Positions 6,026 through 26,710 of a stretch of 36,932 nt of DNA are shown here, in pieces. The notes below the pieces were generated by a model that made no database searches, was not told the origin of the DNA, and was given only the letters and a program-made list of their open reading frames with translations. Position 1 is the first letter of the stretch; every line of letters starts with the position of its first letter. Where the stretch lies: positions 1 to 36,932 of IMG/VR virus record IMGVR_UViG_3300037963_002735. One strand, 5' to 3'. Position numbers and translations under genes: made by a program. This DNA comes from a virus.

Positions 6026-9000
6026 ATGGCAGTATCAACCAATCGGAGCCGCATATCCGAAATTCTTGGAACTGATAGCACACCTAAAAAGAAACCTTTA
6101 TATGATCCTCAGATTTCTGAGACTGGTTCTCGCATTGCACAGATCTTAGAAGTTGAGACTCCTCAAATCGCGCAACAAGAAGTTTTTAAGCCTGTTGTTG
6201 GTCCGACTACTTATGATTGGGTAGAGGAAGGCTATATAGATTCTGCTACTCCTGCGTGGCAGAAAGCGTTGGCTAGTGGACCTGTAGGCGGCTTCTTTAA
6301 CATTATTCAAAAGCCTTTGGCTTTGGGATCTTCGCTGGCTAAAGAAAGCATTGACTTGGTTACAGGTCAGGGTTTTGATTTTGGGGATTTGCGTAAGCAA
6401 TACAACGAGAACTATACGTTTGGTCGTTTGTTGCATGACTACGATTTAATGCAAAATCGTGATAGCGGTTGGCAGAAATTTGGTGCTGCTGCTTTGGGGT
6501 TCACTGGTGATGTTCTTTTAGATCCTCTTTCTTATGTTGGTTTAGTAGGGAAGGGGGCTGCTTTTGCTGCAAAGTTGGCTACTGGTGGCGCTCGTGGTAT
6601 TGCTCGTAAAGCTGTAGCTGAGAATCTAAAAAAAGTTACGTTGGGGCATATCACTAGAACAGCAGGTGATGATGTTGCTCGTAACTTGGGCGACAACGTG
6701 TTTATGGAGTTGGGCGACAGGCTTGCTCGTGGTGAAACTGGTCGTTTTGGGCAGTTGGAGTTACGTAAAGGTAAGTCTGGTGGTTGGGAAGTAGATGTTT
6801 TTGCCAAGGTGGGTGATGATGCGGCAGAGGAGCTTGTTGTCAGTACCGCAAAGATTGGTAAATCTATTTCGGATGGAATTACAGATTTTTACAATATTTC
6901 TTCTAAAGCGATTCAAAAGGGTGCAAGTTTTGTTGACGGCGATGAGTTGCGTCGTGCCGCAAATTTTGTTGCTCAGAGTGGAATAGATAAGGCTGGTCGT
7001 TCGTCGGCTGACAATGTCGCTGCTGCTGTTGAGCGTAGTGTTAATAGAACTATTCGTGAACTTGGTGAAGATGTTACCGAGGATGCGGTTAGGGAAGCTG
7101 TAGAGCGAGCTACTCGGGAAGCCACGGAGCAGGCTACGGCTGCTCATAGAGCGTTTTTGACTGCTGATGAAGCAGCAAGAATGAAAATTGGGATTGGCAT
7201 GAAGGTGCCTGGTACTGGACCTATTGGTCGTGCTTTGCGTATTGCTGATCCTATTGAGAGGGCTATTAATAAGGTGACTCGGGCAGGGGTTCAGGCTCCT
7301 GTTGGTATTCGGTTTATGACTTCTGAGACTCCGATTATTGGCAAACTTGCTATGAGTTTGCCTCGGGGAGTGCGAGGTGCTGTTAATAGGGCAGGTCTTT
7401 CTAAAGTAGGAAATGCTTTAGTAGGTGGACGCTTACAGGATTTGAAGCGAACATTGCGCTCTACCGATGATGCTGTTCTTATTCAGCAAGGTAAGCGTGT
7501 TATTCACTCTGTTGCTCGTGGTAACTCTAAAGGTAAGTACGCTAAAACGCAGATGCTTCAGAGAGTGCGTCTTATTACTGAGGCTATTGAAGATGCTGGT
7601 GCTGATCCAGCGATGGTGTATCACGCTGTTGGTGGGGATGAGGCAGCGGCAGCGCAGTTAGCTGTTCTTGATGATTCGTTGTTGAATACGGTTCAAGAAG
7701 GCATTGAAGAGCTTCGTGTTATGGCGAACCAGATGGGTGGTTCAGAGTTTCTTTCAAGCGTAGATAATTATGTTCCTCGGCAGTTGACTGATGAAGCTAG
7801 AGAGGCTCTTCAGGAAGCGTTGGGGGCGAGTGGAAGGTATTCTAAAAGAACCCATAGGGGACGTGGTGCGTATCAGCCGACTGGTCCTGAGCTTCGTCGT
7901 TCGTATCTAAGTAGACAAGATTTTAATAAAGCAGCAGAAGCTGAAGCTGCTGCAAAAGGTATTTCTGTAGAGGAAGCTGCTTCAAGGTTAAAGCAGAGTG
8001 GCGAAGCGACAGACGAGTTTTTTGGTGAGACTTTGCTTGCTCCTGGAACGGTTGATGAACTTACTGGTGAGGTTGCTGGTTCTGTTGAGAAACAGATAGC
8101 TGACATTATTGAACGTAATGGTGGCGATTATGCCTTGTTTGTTGATGACATCAACATAGCTCTTCGGGGTTGGGTTGATCAGGTTGCTCCTCGGGTGGGT
8201 GAAACATATACGCAAACGCTTTTAACTGAGAGCGGTATTTTGCAGCATCGCTTTGTTGAGTATGTGCGGTTGCCTTCTCCTGAAGCTAAAGCTGCTTCTG
8301 CGAAGTTGTTGAAAGCTGAAGAAACTTTTGCTGCTCGTCAAGCTGCTGTTATTCGTGCTGCTTATGAAGTTCAAACTGCTGTAGGCGCTCAACTTGATAC
8401 GGCAAGGATGACTTTGCGTCGTCAAGAGGAATTGGCTGATGAAGCTCAAGAACTTTTAGATGTTGCTCGTCGTGAAGAAGATGAGCTATTTGCTAAGAAG
8501 TCTGTTGAAGAACAGCGTGTTCTTTCTTTGGATGAACAAGAAAAAGAATTACAAAACATTTTGGATCAGGTTGAAGGACGTTTACCTGAGACAGAGGGTG
8601 ATGAGCTTGTTCGTTTAGAAGCTCAACGTCAAGATTTGTTGAATCAGCTAAATATGATTCGTTCTGATGATGGTCGATTTAGGTGGTCGTACAATACGAT
8701 TGCTGCGGCTACTGGGCAAAAGTTGTGGCTGGAAAAAGCTATTCGTGAGGTGTTCACTTCGGGTGAAAACTTTGAGGCATTTGCTCGGGAAATGGCAGAT
8801 GTTGATGTAAGCGATCCTTCTTTTGATCCTATGGGTGTGTTTGTTGCGCCTGATGGAACTGAAATTTTGATGCAAGATGCTATTGGTTTTGCTGATGGAA
8901 TTTTGGAGAAAGCCGATTCGCAAGGTTATGGCTTGTGGATGGGTGTTGAACGTGAAATAGATCTTATTAATCTTCAGGTTGCTGCTAACAATCCGATTAA

Positions 9001-22534: not shown

Positions 22535-22548
22535 AACCTCCAATGGTT
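22535..22548 (-). promoter_or_regulatory. SD hairpin of the 151-aa gene
   Basis: On the coding strand AACC, loop ATTGGA, GGTT. The Shine-Dalgarno GGAGG spans the loop and the 3' arm; ATG follows four bases after the stem. Confidence 0.6.
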
Positions 22549-22568
22549 TGTGGGTTTGTTTGCTACTA

Positions 22569-22609
22569 GGTGTATTACACCCTCACTTCGTGAGGGGGTG
22601 TAATACACC
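22569..22609 (-). repeat. Large intergenic hairpin, early-block type
   Basis: Arms GGTGTATTACACCCTCAC and GTGAGGGGGTGTAATACACC pair over 18 bases with two extra G, closed by a TTC loop. There is no U-run after either arm, so it is not a standard terminator. Same design as the hairpins at 24828 and 24428. Confidence 0.75.
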
Positions 22610-22625
22610 AAGAGTTGGGGGGGCA

Positions 22626-22671
22626 GGGAGGCCAGGAGGGAGGTATACCGTTAGGTATCACCTGGCCTCCC
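22626..22671 (-). promoter_or_regulatory. GC-rich 11-bp hairpin after the DUF932-like gene
   Basis: GGGAGGCCAGG (22626-22636) pairs perfectly with CCTGGCCTCCC (22661-22671), with an inner ATACC/GGTAT stem. It lies 17 bases past the stop of the DUF932-like gene. Strong enough to stall or protect RNA, but no U-run follows leftward, so termination is uncertain. Confidence 0.6.
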
Positions 22672-22687
22672 CAGACCTATCCTACCG

Positions 22688-23698
22688 TCACACACCTACT
22701 AGTAGTAGCTCTCGCAGATATTGTTCTGCCGCATCTGCAATAGGTGTTTTACGATCCAAGACTTTCTCAAATCCTTTCTGCTTTGCAGCAGTCGTAGACT
22801 TGAAGCCTTGATTGATTCGATGCTGCTCGGCACCTTGGAATGCGTTGTATGCGAACCATCCATTACCCCAGACACCATTAGTTTCTTTTGACCAAGCGTT
22901 CAGGATCGCAGCACGTTTCGCATCTACAGCGTTCCGAGTTTTAGTGGGAGCGTCCATGTCTGCCTCTGGCAGTAGAGCGTTAAGCATCCGATAGAACGCA
23001 ACATCACTAAGCCCTTTTTCGCTGAGGTTGCGTGCAAAGGTGACAAGATTGTCACTATTCACCTTGCTTGCCTCCAGCAACGCTGACCGTAAGGTCAGTA
23101 GGTCGTCGTGATTCTTAGTTGACTTAACTTGGATCAGTCCTTTGGACAGATCCAACATGTTCAAGCAACTAACACGGTGACCAACAGCGTTGATCGTTGT
23201 CTTAGCTTGTCCGTTTAAGGACGAGCTAGTGATTATCACAGGTAAAATATTGTCACCATCCATAACTTCAATCGGATCTCCGATTTGTTGGGTGATAGCG
23301 ATACGCTCCCCACGACCAAACACAGTGATGTCTGTGCAACTATCAGGGAACATAGTTTCCATAGTTTCAAAGACGTGCTTGTATCCGTCACGTTGTGGGT
23401 ATCGACCAGAATGTAACCCAAGATCCGTAGAATCTTCTACTTCACCTAAGTCCAGCGGATTAACGCCGTCCACACGAAGAACATACAAGTTCTTAGGGTG
23501 ACCTTTCTTGTTACCTTTTTCGTAAACAGGGGTCTTAAGCTCACCTGTCATGGGGCATACATATCGTGATGCCACATATTCGACAGGGAAATCAGCATTT
23601 ACCTCTGATGCAACGTCAAGGACGTTGCGTCCATGTTCGTTTACCTCTTTGGTCAACCAGTCGTGACCTTCGTGGTAGATAACGGTTTCTAATGTCAT
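22688..23698 (-). CDS. DUF932-like phage/plasmid protein (336 aa)
   Basis: The ATG at 23698 is chosen because a hairpinned GGAGG lies just upstream; the longer GTG form adds low-quality sequence. The overall plan fits the DUF932 group: an N-terminal EVNADFPVEYVASRYVCPMTGEL region, a middle rich in beta strands (RIAITQQIGDPIEVMDGDNILPVIITSSSLNG), then 'HRVSCLNML' and a C-terminal ETNGVWGNGWFAYNAFQGAEQHR like the family's 'NT.W...NA.TEY..H'. DUF932 proteins are abundant in phages and plasmids; their role is not established. An early-expressed location is usual for them. Confidence 0.75.
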   Translation of the reverse strand: MTLETVIYHEGHDWLTKEVNEHGRNVLDVASEVNADFPVEYVASRYVCPMTGELKTPVYEKGNKKGHPKNLYVLRVDGVNPLDLGEVEDSTDLGLHSGRYPQRDGYKHVFETMETMFPDSCTDITVFGRGERIAITQQIGDPIEVMDGDNILPVIITSSSLNGQAKTTINAVGHRVSCLNMLDLSKGLIQVKSTKNHDDLLTLRSALLEASKVNSDNLVTFARNLSEKGLSDVAFYRMLNALLPEADMDAPTKTRNAVDAKRAAILNAWSKETNGVWGNGWFAYNAFQGAEQHRINQGFKSTTAAKQKGFEKVLDRKTPIADAAEQYLRELLLVGV

Positions 23699-23704
23699 GT
23701 AAAC

Positions 23705-23718
23705 ACACCTCCAAGTGT
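23705..23718 (-). promoter_or_regulatory. SD hairpin of the DUF932-like gene
   Basis: On the coding strand ACAC, loop TTGGAG, GTGT; GGAGG spans the loop and arm. ATG follows six bases after the stem. Confidence 0.55.
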
Positions 23719-24108
23719 ATTTGTTAATTGATTTATTTACTTTACCAAGTGGGTGGGACACTCACTCAGAAGCGTGGAATGTTAGGGATTTGCACCCCTA
23801 CACCCTCTCCAAACAAGAACCCAATGAACATAGATCAAGCGCCTTTCACCTGATCGTCCGATCTTGCCTGTCATGTGTATTGCTAGCCTTGCCGTGTAAC
23901 GTCATTGAGCTACGCCTTCACTGTGCCTGCCGTGACTTTTGAAGATTGCTCTCAACTTCTGGTCCTCAACGCATGGCGTTTCCGCATGGCGTATATGGAC
24001 CTCAACTTATTAACAATACTTCTCCTGCCAGACAACTCATAGAGACTTACCACTTAACCTTAGGTGGATAAGTGTGCTCTTTCGCCTTGGCCACATTCCT
24101 TATGTTTG
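23719..24108 (-). ncRNA. Gene-free 390-base interval; candidate structured RNA (24099 to 23776)
   Basis: No convincing ORF on either strand. On the minus strand GGAATGT (24099-24093) can pair with ACATTCC (23782-23776). Immediately before the latter is a T-arm-like hairpin (TAGGG, loop GTGCAAAT, CCCTA; 23800-23783), followed by a single A as discriminator. That is the geometry of a tRNA or tmRNA 3' end with a 324-base span. Inside are several short hairpins (GATCG/CGATC, GAAG/CTTC, two copies of CGCATGGCG). However, the usual tmRNA GGTTTCGAC start and an ALAA-type tag were not found, and the D- and anticodon arms are not clear. A tRNA-like structured RNA is possible; function open. Confidence 0.35.
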
Positions 24109-24153
24109 TGGGAGTATTTACCCCCTCAAACTAGAGGGGGGTAAATACACCCA
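24109..24153 (-). repeat. Large intergenic hairpin, GTATTTA type
   Basis: Core arms GTATTTACCCCCTC (24114-24127) and GAGGGGGGTAAATAC (24134-24148) with loop AAACTA, lying eight bases beyond the stop of the 79-aa gene. Compared with the copies at 24432 and 25763, one A-T pair is replaced by a C-G pair, so pairing is kept. Confidence 0.75.
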
Positions 24154-24160
24154 ACACTTG

Positions 24161-24400
24161 TTAAACGGGGCTGTACACCCCTTCCAGATGCTCATTCATA
24201 GCGATAACAGCGTCGTCGTACGTGTCGTATTTCTTCGACATAATCGTAGACATTCCGTTGCCATCATCCAACGCACCTAGATCTACAGTCACCTGAAAGA
24301 AAAACCAATCACGATCTTCCATTTTGGATACAGATGCCGCCGTCACATAGGGTCTATCGTAGATACACTCCATGCTCTGGTTGATTTCTTTTGTTGTCAT
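24161..24400 (-). CDS. Small early protein, unknown (79 aa)
   Basis: ATG at 24400 with GGGGAGGT in the loop of a hairpin. Aromatic and acidic (CIYDRPYVTAASVSKMEDRDWFFFQVTVDLG), with C-terminal DTYDDAVIAMNEHLEGVY that could form a short helix. No Cys pairs or membrane segment. Part of a cluster of small leftward genes where phages usually keep host-takeover or counter-defence proteins; this specific role is not shown. Confidence 0.75.
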   Translation of the reverse strand: MTTKEINQSMECIYDRPYVTAASVSKMEDRDWFFFQVTVDLGALDDGNGMSTIMSKKYDTYDDAVIAMNEHLEGVYSPV

Positions 24401-24402
24401 AC

Positions 24403-24418
24403 CCGACCTCCCCGTCGG
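24403..24418 (-). promoter_or_regulatory. SD hairpin of the 79-aa gene
   Basis: On the coding strand CCGAC, loop GGGGAG, GTCGG: five perfect pairs, two bases before the ATG. Confidence 0.65.
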
Positions 24419-24427
24419 TGTTGTTGT

Positions 24428-24471
24428 GGGAGTATTTAACCCCTCAAACTAGAGGGGGTTAAATACACCCA
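24428..24471 (-). repeat. Large intergenic hairpin, GTATTTAA type
   Basis: Core arms GTATTTAACCCCTC (24432-24445) and GAGGGGGTTAAATAC (24452-24466), loop AAACTA, with an outer GGG/CCC extension across an A-A mismatch. Nine bases past the upstream gene's stop. Confidence 0.8.
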
Positions 24472-24479
24472 ACATTTGA

Positions 24480-24800
24480 TTACATCCCAGGTTCCCACGT
24501 ATCTTCGGTGAGAATCCAAGTCGAACGAACGTCATACTTAGATGTGAACACACCAGCTTCTAATAGCTGGTTCCCATACTCATACCGCTTACGGGAAATG
24601 TTTGCTTCCTTATGGACAGGTGGAACGATAGTTCCAGTCAAAGAGTAAACCGCTTCAGCGGTTTGCGCATCCAAGAAAGCCCGAACCAAATTCGCATCAG
24701 CACCGTCCAAAGGACGGAACCTAGCTCGAACAGTGGCACCCATACCTACGATGTCGCCACCTACAGCGTAAAGTGCTGCACCCTCTATCCAATTGCTCAT
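24480..24800 (-). CDS. Small early protein, unknown (106 aa)
   Basis: ATG at 24800 preceded by a hairpinned GGAGG. The protein has a hydrophobic Gly-rich N-terminus (IEGAALYAVGGDIVGMGATV), a middle DGADANLVRAFLDAQTAEAVY helix and a C-terminal aromatic end (STWILTEDTWEPGM). No family is recognised. It is separated from the neighbours on both sides by large hairpins, so it may be translated independently. Confidence 0.75.
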   Translation of the reverse strand: MSNWIEGAALYAVGGDIVGMGATVRARFRPLDGADANLVRAFLDAQTAEAVYSLTGTIVPPVHKEANISRKRYEYGNQLLEAGVFTSKYDVRSTWILTEDTWEPGM

Positions 24801-24804
24801 ATTT

Positions 24805-24820
24805 CCGATCCTCCAATCGG
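24805..24820 (-). promoter_or_regulatory. SD hairpin of the 106-aa gene
   Basis: On the coding strand CCGAT, loop TGGAGG, ATCGG: five perfect pairs with the complete Shine-Dalgarno in a six-base loop, four bases before the ATG. Confidence 0.7.
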
Positions 24821-24827
24821 TTGTTTA

Positions 24828-24877
24828 TTGGGGGTATTACACCCCTCACTACGTGAGGGGGGTGTAATACCTCCCAA
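24828..24877 (-). repeat. Large intergenic hairpin, GTATTACA type
   Basis: Arms GGTATTACACCCCTCAC and GTGAGGGGGGTGTAATACC pair with two extra G and a TAC loop, with an outer TTGGG/CCCAA extension past one bulged T. Three bases past the stop of the 58-aa gene. Closest in design to the copy at 22569. Confidence 0.8.
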
Positions 24878-24880
24878 ACT

Positions 24881-25057
24881 CTACTTTCGCTCGGCATCAA
24901 GCCGTGCCTGCCACCAAGCCTTCCACTCAGCTTCAGCACGAGCCTGCCTAGCCTTACGCTCTGCCTGTAAGCGTTCCCATTTCGCTATGAGCAACATATG
25001 TGACCAAGCGATAGCGAACCCAAACAACAGGTACGATGCAGCAGGAATATCAGGCAT
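24881..25057 (-). CDS. Small membrane protein with basic coiled tail (58 aa)
   Basis: A 58-codon ORF whose ATG overlaps the upstream stop (TGATG). Residues 6-25 (AASYLLFGFAIAWSHMLLIA) form one hydrophobic segment. Residues 26-58 are a charged, Ala/Arg/Trp-rich helix (KWERLQAERKARQARAEAEW). Likely a single-pass inner-membrane protein with a cytoplasmic basic tail. Co-translated with the 118-aa protein. Function unknown; an antiholin, superinfection or takeover role is possible but speculative. Confidence 0.72.
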   Translation of the reverse strand: MPDIPAASYLLFGFAIAWSHMLLIAKWERLQAERKARQARAEAEWKAWWQARLDAERK

Positions 25058-25413
25058 CACGCATTCACCTGCCAGTACTCACGAATATTCTGCAAAGCCT
25101 GCACATCATCGGGATGCCAAGTATCTCCAGATACTTTGAACTCGTCCTCTAACTCTGAAAGAGTCCCCTCGTGACCCTCATAGCCAAGGTAATACCACGA
25201 CACTAGATGACCGTCCTCTAGGACGGCAGTCTCGTAAGCCTCATTAGTGAGGAACACTTTGCCGCTGTGAGTATTAAACATAGGCCGCACCATGTCTGAC
25301 TCAAAGTCAGACGGCAACCCACACATATTCCATGCCGTAAGCAACTCAACAAGAATCTGCCGCTCACGAGCACCAAACCGACCTATGTCGGTAGTAACAA
25401 TATCATCATACAT
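25057..25413 (-). CDS. Small early protein, unknown (118 aa)
   Basis: The start at 25413 (MYDDIVTTD) is set by the hairpinned GGAGG upstream; the longer frame runs back through the hairpin. Soluble and acidic, with an N-terminal helical part (RERQILVELLTAWNMCGL) and a C-terminal WHPDDVQALQNIREYW. No motif is recognised. Its stop overlaps the next ATG, so the 58-aa membrane protein is probably made in step with it. Confidence 0.75.
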   Translation of the reverse strand: MYDDIVTTDIGRFGARERQILVELLTAWNMCGLPSDFESDMVRPMFNTHSGKVFLTNEAYETAVLEDGHLVSWYYLGYEGHEGTLSELEDEFKVSGDTWHPDDVQALQNIREYWQVNA

Positions 25414-25417
25414 TTTT

Positions 25418-25431
25418 CGGACCTCCATCCG
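25418..25431 (-). promoter_or_regulatory. SD hairpin of the 118-aa gene
   Basis: On the coding strand CGGA, loop TGGAGG, TCCG: four perfect pairs, four bases before the ATG. Confidence 0.65.
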
Positions 25432-25466
25432 TAATATTCCAATCAACATATCAAGAGATTGGGGCA

Positions 25467-25491
25467 GATCCACCACCAAAGGTGGTGAATC
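25467..25491 (-). repeat. Intergenic hairpin, CACCACC type
   Basis: CACCACC (25471-25477), loop AAA, GGTGGTG, with an outer GAT/ATC stem across one mismatch. Same position (12 bases past a stop) as the GTATTTAA hairpins but a different sequence. Confidence 0.7.
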
Positions 25492-25503
25492 CGACTCAAC
25501 CGC

Positions 25504-25731
25504 TTACTTATTGAGCAACTCGACACCCTTTTCAAGGGTCAAATCATAAGACAAGGCATACGCCCAGCCATCATATTCAGGCCGATTAAAGTCCTTAATA
25601 GCAACCACAAACGGTGCTTCAGGGAAGGGACATTCGTCCCTTTTCACTAGGATTCTAAAGAATCCAGGGTCGTTAGCAATTTCAACCTTGTCGATAATGG
25701 GATACCCATTAGCAGTGGTAATTTCATTCAT
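25504..25731 (-). CDS. Small early protein, unknown (75 aa)
   Basis: The ATG at 25731 is selected because the hairpinned GGAGG lies directly before it. Sequence MNEITTANGYPIIDKVEIAN, then DPGFFRILVKRDECPFPEAPFVVAIKDF and a C-terminal helix. Mixed alpha/beta, single Cys. Flanked by large hairpins on both sides. No family recognised. Confidence 0.75.
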   Translation of the reverse strand: MNEITTANGYPIIDKVEIANDPGFFRILVKRDECPFPEAPFVVAIKDFNRPEYDGWAYALSYDLTLEKGVELLNK

Positions 25732-25748
25732 CCGATTTCCTCCATCGG
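25732..25748 (-). promoter_or_regulatory. SD hairpin of the 75-aa gene
   Basis: On the coding strand CCGAT, loop GGAGGAA, ATCGG: five perfect pairs with the complete Shine-Dalgarno in the loop. The stem abuts the ATG directly. Confidence 0.7.
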
Positions 25749-25762
25749 TTTTGATAGTGAGA

Positions 25763-25797
25763 GTATTTAACCCCTCAAACAAGAGGGGGTTAAATAC
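25763..25797 (-). repeat. Large intergenic hairpin, GTATTTAA type
   Basis: GTATTTAACCCCTC (25763-25776), loop AAACAA, GAGGGGGTTAAATAC (25783-25797). Nearly identical arms to the copy at 24432, with one loop base changed. Confidence 0.8.
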
Positions 25798-25827
25798 ACT
25801 CAATCCAGCAGTTAGCTGATCTAACCC

Positions 25828-25849
25828 TCCAACCCCCTAAGGGGTTGGA
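25828..25849 (-). promoter_or_regulatory. Hairpin after the 57-aa gene
   Basis: TCCAACCCC (25828-25836), loop CTAA, GGGGTTGGA: nine perfect pairs, 32 bases past the stop at 25882. No U-run follows leftward. Could be a processing or stabilising element. Confidence 0.65.
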
Positions 25850-25881
25850 AAGAAAGAACAAACAACGCTGTAAGCGTTACC

Positions 25882-26055
25882 TCAATCCAATACCTTCGGC
25901 AAAGCAACAGCCAACAGCCCCATCAGATCTACGATCTGCTTCGGAGTCAAAGTCACTTTCATCTGAGATTGAGAAACCAAAATCCCTTGGGGATTCAACA
26001 CCTGCTCTTCAACAGAATCAGCAAAGACAGCAGTAAATTCAAAAGTTTTCATCAT
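25882..26055 (-). CDS. Small early protein, unknown (57 aa)
   Basis: A 57-codon ORF; its first ATG overlaps the upstream stop (TAATG), and a second in-frame ATG follows directly. Sequence MMKTFEFTAVFADSVEEQVL, then NPQGILVSQSQMKVTLTPKQ and a hydrophobic C-terminal helix IVDLMGLLAVALPKVLD. The last 17 residues could be amphipathic or peripherally membrane bound. It forms a coupled pair with the 56-aa gene. No family recognised. Confidence 0.7.
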   Translation of the reverse strand: MMKTFEFTAVFADSVEEQVLNPQGILVSQSQMKVTLTPKQIVDLMGLLAVALPKVLD

Positions 26056-26225
26056 TAGACTAACTCTCCAATCGCATCGAGATACCTCTCGATATCACCC
26101 AAAGCTCTCCTAATTTCAGGAGCAGTATTTCCAGCTTCAATCTGCTGAAGCAGCAACAATCTCATATTTTTGTAACCATCCAAAGATGGTTCCAAACTGA
26201 TAAAGCTAATTTCTTTATTTGCCAT
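26055..26225 (-). CDS. First gene of the leftward block, unknown (56 aa)
   Basis: The start at 26225 (MANKEISFIS) is used; an in-frame ATG at 26237 lies inside the Shine-Dalgarno and is not credible. Acidic helical protein: NMRLLLLQQIEAGNTAPEIRRALGDIERYLDAIGEL. It is the promoter-proximal gene after the divergent control region, so it is probably among the earliest products. Function unknown. Confidence 0.72.
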   Translation of the reverse strand: MANKEISFISLEPSLDGYKNMRLLLLQQIEAGNTAPEIRRALGDIERYLDAIGELV

Positions 26226-26242
26226 TTCGACCTCCATCGAAA
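26225..26242 (-). promoter_or_regulatory. SD hairpin of the 56-aa gene
   Basis: On the coding strand TTTCGA, loop TGGAGG, TCGAAA: six perfect pairs with the Shine-Dalgarno alone in the loop. The last paired base is the A of the ATG. Confidence 0.75.
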
Positions 26243-26254
26243 ATTTGGTTTGGG

Positions 26255-26291
26255 GTTTTCTCTCCCCTCAAAAAGAGGGGGGAGAGAAAAC
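26255..26291 (-). repeat. Large leader hairpin before the first early gene
   Basis: GTTTTCTCTCCCCTC (26255-26269), loop AAAAA, GAGGGGGGAGAGAAAAC (26275-26291), with two extra G as in the other copies. It occupies the same place relative to the SD hairpin as the intergenic hairpins, though here it is not preceded by a gene. Confidence 0.75.
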
Positions 26292-26399
26292 TCTTTCAAA
26301 GAGAATCAAGCTACTTTCAGAACCCCCAGCAAAACCCCCCAACCATCGAAGGGTTGCCACGAAGTGGCAGCGGTCCGCTATTTGCCACCACCAACAGCA

Positions 26400-26414: not shown

Positions 26415-26426
26415 CTGGGCCGTTTC

Positions 26427-26443
26427 CTAGTACAAAGTACTAG
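26427..26443. promoter_or_regulatory. Operator-like palindrome O2
   Basis: CTAGTAC, spacer AAA, GTACTAG: perfect 7-bp arms, six bases from O3. Confidence 0.6.
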
Positions 26444-26448
26444 TTTTT

Positions 26449-26469
26449 ACTTAGTACAGAGTACTAAGT
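26449..26469. promoter_or_regulatory. Operator-like palindrome O3
   Basis: Arms ACTTAGTAC and GTACTAAGT around spacer AGA: nine perfect pairs. Best match to a dimeric regulator site in this region. Confidence 0.65.
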
Positions 26470-26632
26470 GCAGCGGCGGTCCACCGAACTGGCCCAGCTT
26501 GCTGAAAGCAAGCCGCACGCACCCACCCCCCTGTGGGGGTACGCCCCCTTGCGCACGTATATGTATAGATATCCATTTGGAATGCGTTTGGTTTTTAGAA
26601 CTTGAATCCTTTGTCGCTGTATGCGCCAAAGT

Positions 26633-26653
26633 TCTTAGTTCCTAGTACTAAGT
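26633..26653. promoter_or_regulatory. Operator-like imperfect palindrome O4
   Basis: TCTTAGTTC, spacer CTA, GTACTAAGT: right half identical to O3; left half has two mismatches. Confidence 0.5.
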
Positions 26654-26710
26654 GTCAATCTCCATCCCTGGGGGGTATGGAGATTGGTACTAAGTAATTA
26701 CTTAGTATAG
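26645..26710 (-). promoter_or_regulatory. Leftward promoter/operator cassette B
   Basis: Half-site GTACTAAGT (26645-26653), two bases, a 10-bp hairpin CAATCTCCAT/ATGGAGATTG with an 11-base loop (26656-26686), two bases, palindrome ACTAAGTAATTACTTAGT (26689-26706) and the leftward box TATACT (26710-26705, partly overlapping). Same order and spacing as cassette A at 19796-19858 but a different hairpin sequence. It would drive the cluster of small early genes. No good -35 is visible. Confidence 0.65.

Follow-up and report, generated by a model that had tools for sequence, protein, structure and literature searches.

Large directional hairpins paired with Shine-Dalgarno hairpins at early gene borders of an uncultured marine phage

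In Cluster K mycobacteriophages a fixed 13-mer, GGGATAGGAGCCC, the start-associated sequence (SAS), lies at the ribosome-binding site, and both it and the extended start-associated sequence (ESAS), an inverted repeat upstream of about half of the sites, are restricted to the non-structural region; the authors found little support for pairing of the ESAS in mRNA (PMC3203893). SAS-type elements also occur in the Microbacterium phages of Cluster EF (PMC7302621). The subject of our analysis was a family of large intergenic hairpins in IMG/VR virus record IMGVR_UViG_3300037963_002735, from an uncultured marine phage; the window is this whole record, 36,932 bases. Each hairpin usually stands just upstream of a weak hairpin that carries the Shine-Dalgarno (SD) sequence of the next gene. 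The initial annotation of this DNA likened the two-part layout to SAS plus ESAS, and with regard to layout the likeness to Clusters K and EF stands: an SD element lies a few nucleotides before the starts of non-structural genes, a second element lies just upstream, and, as in Cluster K, this inverted repeat accompanies a subset of the start-linked elements in the non-structural region only. Kinship is not supported. The Cluster K SD word is fixed and its 17-bp repeats are conserved in sequence without support for pairing, whereas the hairpins described here vary in sequence, keep their pairing and carry a directional bulge. A shared 13-bp word is absent from the SD hairpins (66 distinct 4-nt arm pairs among 96 distinct SD hairpins, the stems varying by gene), and in place of conserved, unpaired 17-bp half-sites the large hairpins have an outer stem that varies and covaries. 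We located ten SAS sites in phage TM4 (allowing up to two mismatches), and at several of them each half of the upstream repeat is itself palindromic (TGTTGA..TCAACA), so that the TM4 ESAS halves look like DNA operators.

Other described systems offer partial parallels. T7 early mRNA is cut by RNase III at intergenic hairpins which, like those of the window, are about 20 bp long, contain bulges or mismatches, lack a U-run and belong to a podovirus; by this analogy the T7 sites appear to be the best mechanistic parallel, although they number about ten, are individual in sequence and do not make up a family of repeated, swapped members linked to SD hairpins. The best evolutionary parallel would be the promoter early stem-loop (PeSL) cassettes of T4-type phages, reportedly to be credited to Arbiol 2010 and Comeau 2014. 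As far as they are summarized in PMC4503421, where they are cited, these cassettes combine a stem-loop with an early promoter at gene borders where shuffling is strong; the stem-loops and the shuffling are matched here, but a short A/C-rich linker leads to the SD hairpin and would leave little room for a promoter. For tisB a standby site with a sequestered ribosome-binding site has been described on a processed mRNA, and there too a single strand beside structure lies upstream of the sequestered site; in tisB, a single toxin mRNA, about 100 nt separate the standby and ribosome-binding sites, while the arrangement here is short, repeated and operon-wide (PMC7708055). The 17-bp palindromes of the Cluster O phage Corndog are likewise inverted repeats in many, often intergenic copies, for which recombination between copies has been inferred, but they have invariant 7-bp arms and no fixed orientation, about one third lie inside genes and they are unlinked to starts (PMC4351075).

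All hairpins reported here lie on the minus strand of a leftward, non-structural block (about 16 to 26.2 kb), that is, on the mRNA strand of what we call the early operon, a label drawn from gene content. The seven large hairpins listed by the initial annotation are all present, and six of them (26252-26294, 25758-25802, 24830-24874, 24427-24471, 24109-24153 and 22566-22612) are of near-identical design, while that at 25453-25505 has a different design and sequence. The design can be read from 24427-24471, whose RNA is UGGG U GUAUUUAACCCC C UC UAGUUU GA GGGGUUAAAUAC U CCCA: above the four pairs at its base come a U.U mismatch, a run of twelve pairs, the bulged C and two further pairs that close the loop. 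This hairpin starts 8 nt past the upstream stop codon and ends 26 nt from the next start codon. Members of its class, the CCCCTC class, have the CCCC/GGGG block, C bulge and UC/GA in common and vary by site in the outer stem. The asymmetry first described as one or two extra G on the 3' arm is real, and because the genes are on the minus strand it corresponds in the RNA to one or two additional C in the 5' arm. At a typical site the stop codon is followed by a hairpin of about 20 bp, then by the A/C-rich linker and the SD hairpin, and last by the start codon; the first description, which placed every hairpin between a gene stop and the next SD hairpin, fits most sites, with the exceptions of 26252 (no gene stop in the 150 nt upstream), 24109 (a tRNA-like gene follows) and 25453 (overlaps the stop codon). 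Using a hairpin score that permits one bulge, seven hairpins of the window reach 36 or more; the best score when the whole window was shuffled 20 times with its dinucleotides preserved was 35.5. Of the seven, six are family members and the other, 26646-26696, lies in the divergent promoter region. The large hairpins fold at -23 to -29 kcal/mol, and large hairpin plus SD hairpin together give z values of -2.2 to -6.3.

We gathered about 160 IMG/VR loci through terminase, DUF932 and helicase searches, and the near contigs carry several such sites apiece. Among 33 distinct hairpins of the class the outer eight pairs are formed in 99.2% of cells, compared with 63% when the 3' arms are reshuffled among hairpins (1000 shuffles, maximum 72.7%), and two-sided changes occur at all eight outer-stem positions, in agreement with the earlier claim that pairing is kept where sequences differ. 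In all 33 the extra C is found on the 5' arm. A gapless alignment of 18 sequences gives a covariation of 0.314 versus 0.081 when shuffled (0 of 500 shuffles reached it), slid registers come nowhere near, and an independent pair count finds 35 two-sided cells. A covariance model of the CCCCTC class scores the early-mRNA strand above its complement for nearly all members, its strong matches in the window all fall within the early operon, and it has no match in 77 unrelated viral contigs. As far as comparison of sequences can do so, these results demonstrate a directional, base-paired intergenic element at gene borders that is kept by compensating change. In distant relatives (terminase or helicase at about 75-83%) the layout recurs with stems of other kinds, among them TGAAC-GAA-GTGAA tips and CTCTCT..GAGAG stems. 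Rfam gave no match at the gathering threshold and chance-level matches only.

The second part of the layout is equally recurrent. The SD hairpins are weak (-3 to -9 kcal/mol) and hold the SD sequence in the loop or 3' arm, a stem of at least 5 bp is present at 69% of sites versus 23% when shuffled, and the linker that separates them from the large hairpin is short and A/C-rich (class-wide A 47%, C 30%, G 8%). In near relatives 51 of 76 starts with an SD hairpin have a strong hairpin in the 60 nt before them, in support of the two-part design proposed at the outset; in distant relatives 42 of 94 do, and on the late, opposite strand 1 of 25.

These joints clearly coincide with gene exchange, judging from the gene pairs that meet at them. 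The window and its near contigs contain 68 hairpin junctions, a few of them outside the CCCCTC class, that join 50 distinct pairs of upstream and downstream gene families, as defined by single-linkage BLAST clustering in which the largest family may be composite. The SD region tracks the downstream gene (identity 0.665 between sites that share the downstream gene, 0.456 between those that share the upstream gene). The large hairpin tracks either gene, the upstream one slightly more (0.73 versus 0.64, with 0.46 for unrelated pairs), and identical hairpins occur within one genome. In contig 3300002231_000900 the hairpin and upstream flank of the window's 75-aa gene now precede the first-gene family, which retains its own SD hairpin.

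The best explanation, to which we give slightly less than an even chance, is that the large hairpins serve as double-stranded RNA for processing or stability and in this way insulate the early genes from one another. The stem in the early polycistronic message would most likely be cut by host RNase III, on the model of T7 early mRNA. The cut would leave the upstream message with a protected 3' end and give the downstream gene its own short leader, in which the A/C-rich single strand and the weak SD hairpin would form a ribosome standby site and a gated SD. Such insulation of each gene from those beside it would permit cassette-like exchange of genes and tRNAs. We infer each of these steps, from action as RNA, through cutting by the host enzyme or protection of RNA ends, to the standby role of the linker. 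The broader proposal of operon-wide insulators, in which a directional processing hairpin and a gated-SD hairpin would bracket almost every early gene or tRNA, with the genes interchangeable and the hairpin classes swappable, is possible but doubtful.

An RNase III site requires some 20 bp or more of duplex, in which a mismatch or bulge is often present, and terminator stems are shorter. The stems described here agree with this: they contain a bulge and a U.Y mismatch and have a median length of 20-22 bp in each sequence class, a figure that must be read with caution because the hairpins were collected above a score threshold, which sets a floor on stem length. This threshold is the first of several points that weigh against the explanation. 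The test of wobble pairs is small: an anchored count among the 33 hairpins finds four G-U and no A-C, and it alone favours G-U, while a first, unanchored count in the CCCCTC class gave 18 A-C versus 9 G-U, partly as a result of counting mismatches at the base of the stem. No RNase III gene is present in the window record, so the host enzyme must be assumed. Two relatives with near-identical core genes (L091 and L102, helicase 94-98%) keep the SD hairpins and hold only small stem-loops in their gaps. The large hairpin is therefore dispensable, a trait of particular early-region lineages, and these two contigs go part of the way toward what the initial annotation had said would refute its reading, namely relatives with the genes and without the hairpins. 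Finally, the constancy of the bulge and U.Y mismatch suggests specific recognition rather than a generic duplex.

Because the bulge is constant, protein binding is the main rival explanation. The hairpins would then be sites for a phage or host RNA-binding regulator that reads the C bulge and the tip and controls translation or decay, in the manner of coat-protein or N-type RNA hairpins. The bulged C or CC is invariant (33/33 of the class), 12 of 15 CCCCTC hairpins have a U.U or U.C mismatch at the point where pairing resumes, 8 of 15 TGAAC hairpins have U.U there, and each genome has multiple copies. We nevertheless consider a regulator unlikely. The tips differ (TAGTTT, ATTTAT, CGTAG, CTTAG), the class is swapped at one gene family (CCCCTC in the window versus a stem with GTAACGTAGTGAAG at its tip in L018 and L106), and the small early proteins scanned gave no convincing family match and no candidate for the protein.

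It is improbable that the hairpins are recombination joints only, that is, short conserved border sequences that promote cassette exchange in the manner of PeSL cassettes and have no RNA function. The 50 gene pairs at 68 junctions, the identical hairpins inside one genome, and the SD region staying with the downstream gene while the hairpin goes slightly more with the upstream one would all be accounted for, but exchange requires shared sequence and not pairing, whereas here pairing is kept as sequence drifts, in a fixed orientation and with no integrase or attC-like core.

Transcription attenuators or terminators without a U-run, which would produce a stepwise fall of early transcription, are quite improbable. 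Position right after stop codons and GC-rich upper stems speak for them; the 8 nt 3' of CCCCTC-class hairpins hold on average 1.2 T, the stems reach about 20 bp, and termination at the copy in the leader of the first gene would silence the whole operon. The same lack of a U-run excludes classic intrinsic terminators, as the initial annotation had concluded.

Double-stranded DNA binding sites or cruciforms are very improbable, even though the sequences are near-palindromic and DNA binding was favoured for the ESAS (PMC3203893). Outer arms vary within one genome, leaving the outer stem without a shared DNA word, the asymmetry is fixed relative to transcription, and the spacing to stop and start codons is tight. 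Integron attC sites are defined by an R-box core, GTTRRRY/RYYYAAC, and an IntI-type tyrosine recombinase; the record has no integrase-family match and, by eye, the hairpin bases at the sites listed here have no constant core.

The site at 24109-24153 (C bulge, U.U mismatch) lies between a coding gene and a tRNA-like gene, so translation control cannot be its role, which suggests cutting or end protection there in preference to translational control. The stretch that follows it, 23777-24099 (minus strand), is non-coding; its ends, GGAATGT/ACATTCC, are complementary over 7 bp, and GGGGTGCAAATCCCT within it resembles a T arm. In L084 the syntenic position (7651-7717) is taken by a plain tRNA-Glu(TTC) whose acceptor halves are the same; in the window the halves are about 300 nt apart, and the tRNA-like gene of L085 likewise carries a long insert. 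From these features the stretch has the look of a tRNA split by about 250-300 nt, or else of a transfer-messenger-like RNA; ARAGORN and Rfam do not recognize it.

The remaining sites of the window differ in detail. The first large hairpin, 26252-26294 (AGAGTTTTCTCTCCCCCCTCTTTTTGAGGGGAGAGAAAACCCC, CC bulge in the 5' arm), lies in the leader of the first early gene and has an orthologous hairpin in L009 and L010; its SD hairpin is 26225-26242 (TTTCGAT-GGAG-GTCGAAA, -6.2 kcal/mol; start codon 26225-26223). The open reading frame of this gene is 26055-26237, and its first ATG, at 26237, falls within the SD hairpin; the real start is probably the ATG at 26225. Next comes 25758-25802 (C bulge, U.U mismatch in the lower stem), which scores 70.6 bits on the minus strand versus 40.7 on the plus strand and precedes the SD hairpin 25732-25748 (CCGAT-GGAGGAA-ATCGG, start codon 25731). 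Hairpin 25453-25505, GATTCACCACC-TTT-GGTGGTGGATC, falls outside the CCCCTC class and scores only 11.2 bits; the same hairpin is found in L010 and L111, and the SD hairpin after it is 25418-25431 (CGGA-TGGAGG-TCCG, start codon 25413). Identical copies of 24830-24874 (CC bulge, CAC-GTA-GTG tip) precede other genes in L017 and L111; its SD hairpin is 24805-24820 (CCGATT-GGAG-GATCGG, start codon 24800). Hairpin 24427-24471 scores 72.1 bits and is followed by 24403-24418 (CCGAC-GGGGAG-GTCGG, start codon 24400). The DUF932 gene (22688-23698) has an SD hairpin at 23703-23719 (ACACT-TGGA-GGTGT) and no large hairpin directly upstream. The last large hairpin, 22566-22612 (CC bulge, CAC-GAA-GTG tip), stands before the SD hairpin 22535-22548 (AACC-ATTGGA-GGTT, start codon 22530); in the family of the gene that starts there a hairpin, altered in sequence, stands before most members, even where protein identity is as low as about 25%. 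A second long imperfect hairpin, 22615-22672 (GGGAGGCCAGG..CCTGGCCTCCC), lies directly upstream of it, in the space that follows the DUF932 gene.

The exact word CTGAACGAAGTGAAG occurs widely (in at least 120 stretches of viral contigs) and half of its occurrences have no clear hairpin, so that alone it is no marker of the hairpin family. Repeated hairpins such as ctttCTGAACGAAGTGAAGaaag, many of them followed by ATAGAGAGAT, occur in five other viral contigs (L186, L199, L205, L229 and L230), where the same tip motif has possibly been used independently. The divergent promoter region, 26420-26705, contains repeated TACTTAGTA-type palindromes as well as the 51-nt hairpin 26646-26696, which many relatives have, altered in sequence, in their corresponding region; these are probably operator or origin elements. 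The divergent region of a relative (L078, 1771-2119; L079, 7268-7616) contains a tight back-to-back array of about seven palindromes, each 37-64 nt long, of which several have GTACT/CTGAG cores.

The early block encodes a helicase, a primase, an exonuclease, HNH endonucleases and the DUF932 protein, and packaging and structure genes (terminase, portal, major head, internal virion protein) run rightward from 26.8 kb; the portal, major head and internal-virion families support the earlier description of the genome as podovirus-like. Searches with the terminase TerL, the major head protein and DUF932 found no close cultured relative: the best TerL match, at 50%, is an environmental record, and the best major head match is Myxococcus phage Mx8, at 37%. 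A search for the host through the helicase in 84,980 genomes found no relative.

An SAS/ESAS-like two-part layout with strong evidence of pairing makes the role of start-linked repeats testable. It would link RNA insulation to the fast shuffling of genes in phage early regions, and it may offer many natural insulator-like parts of constant design and differing sequence.

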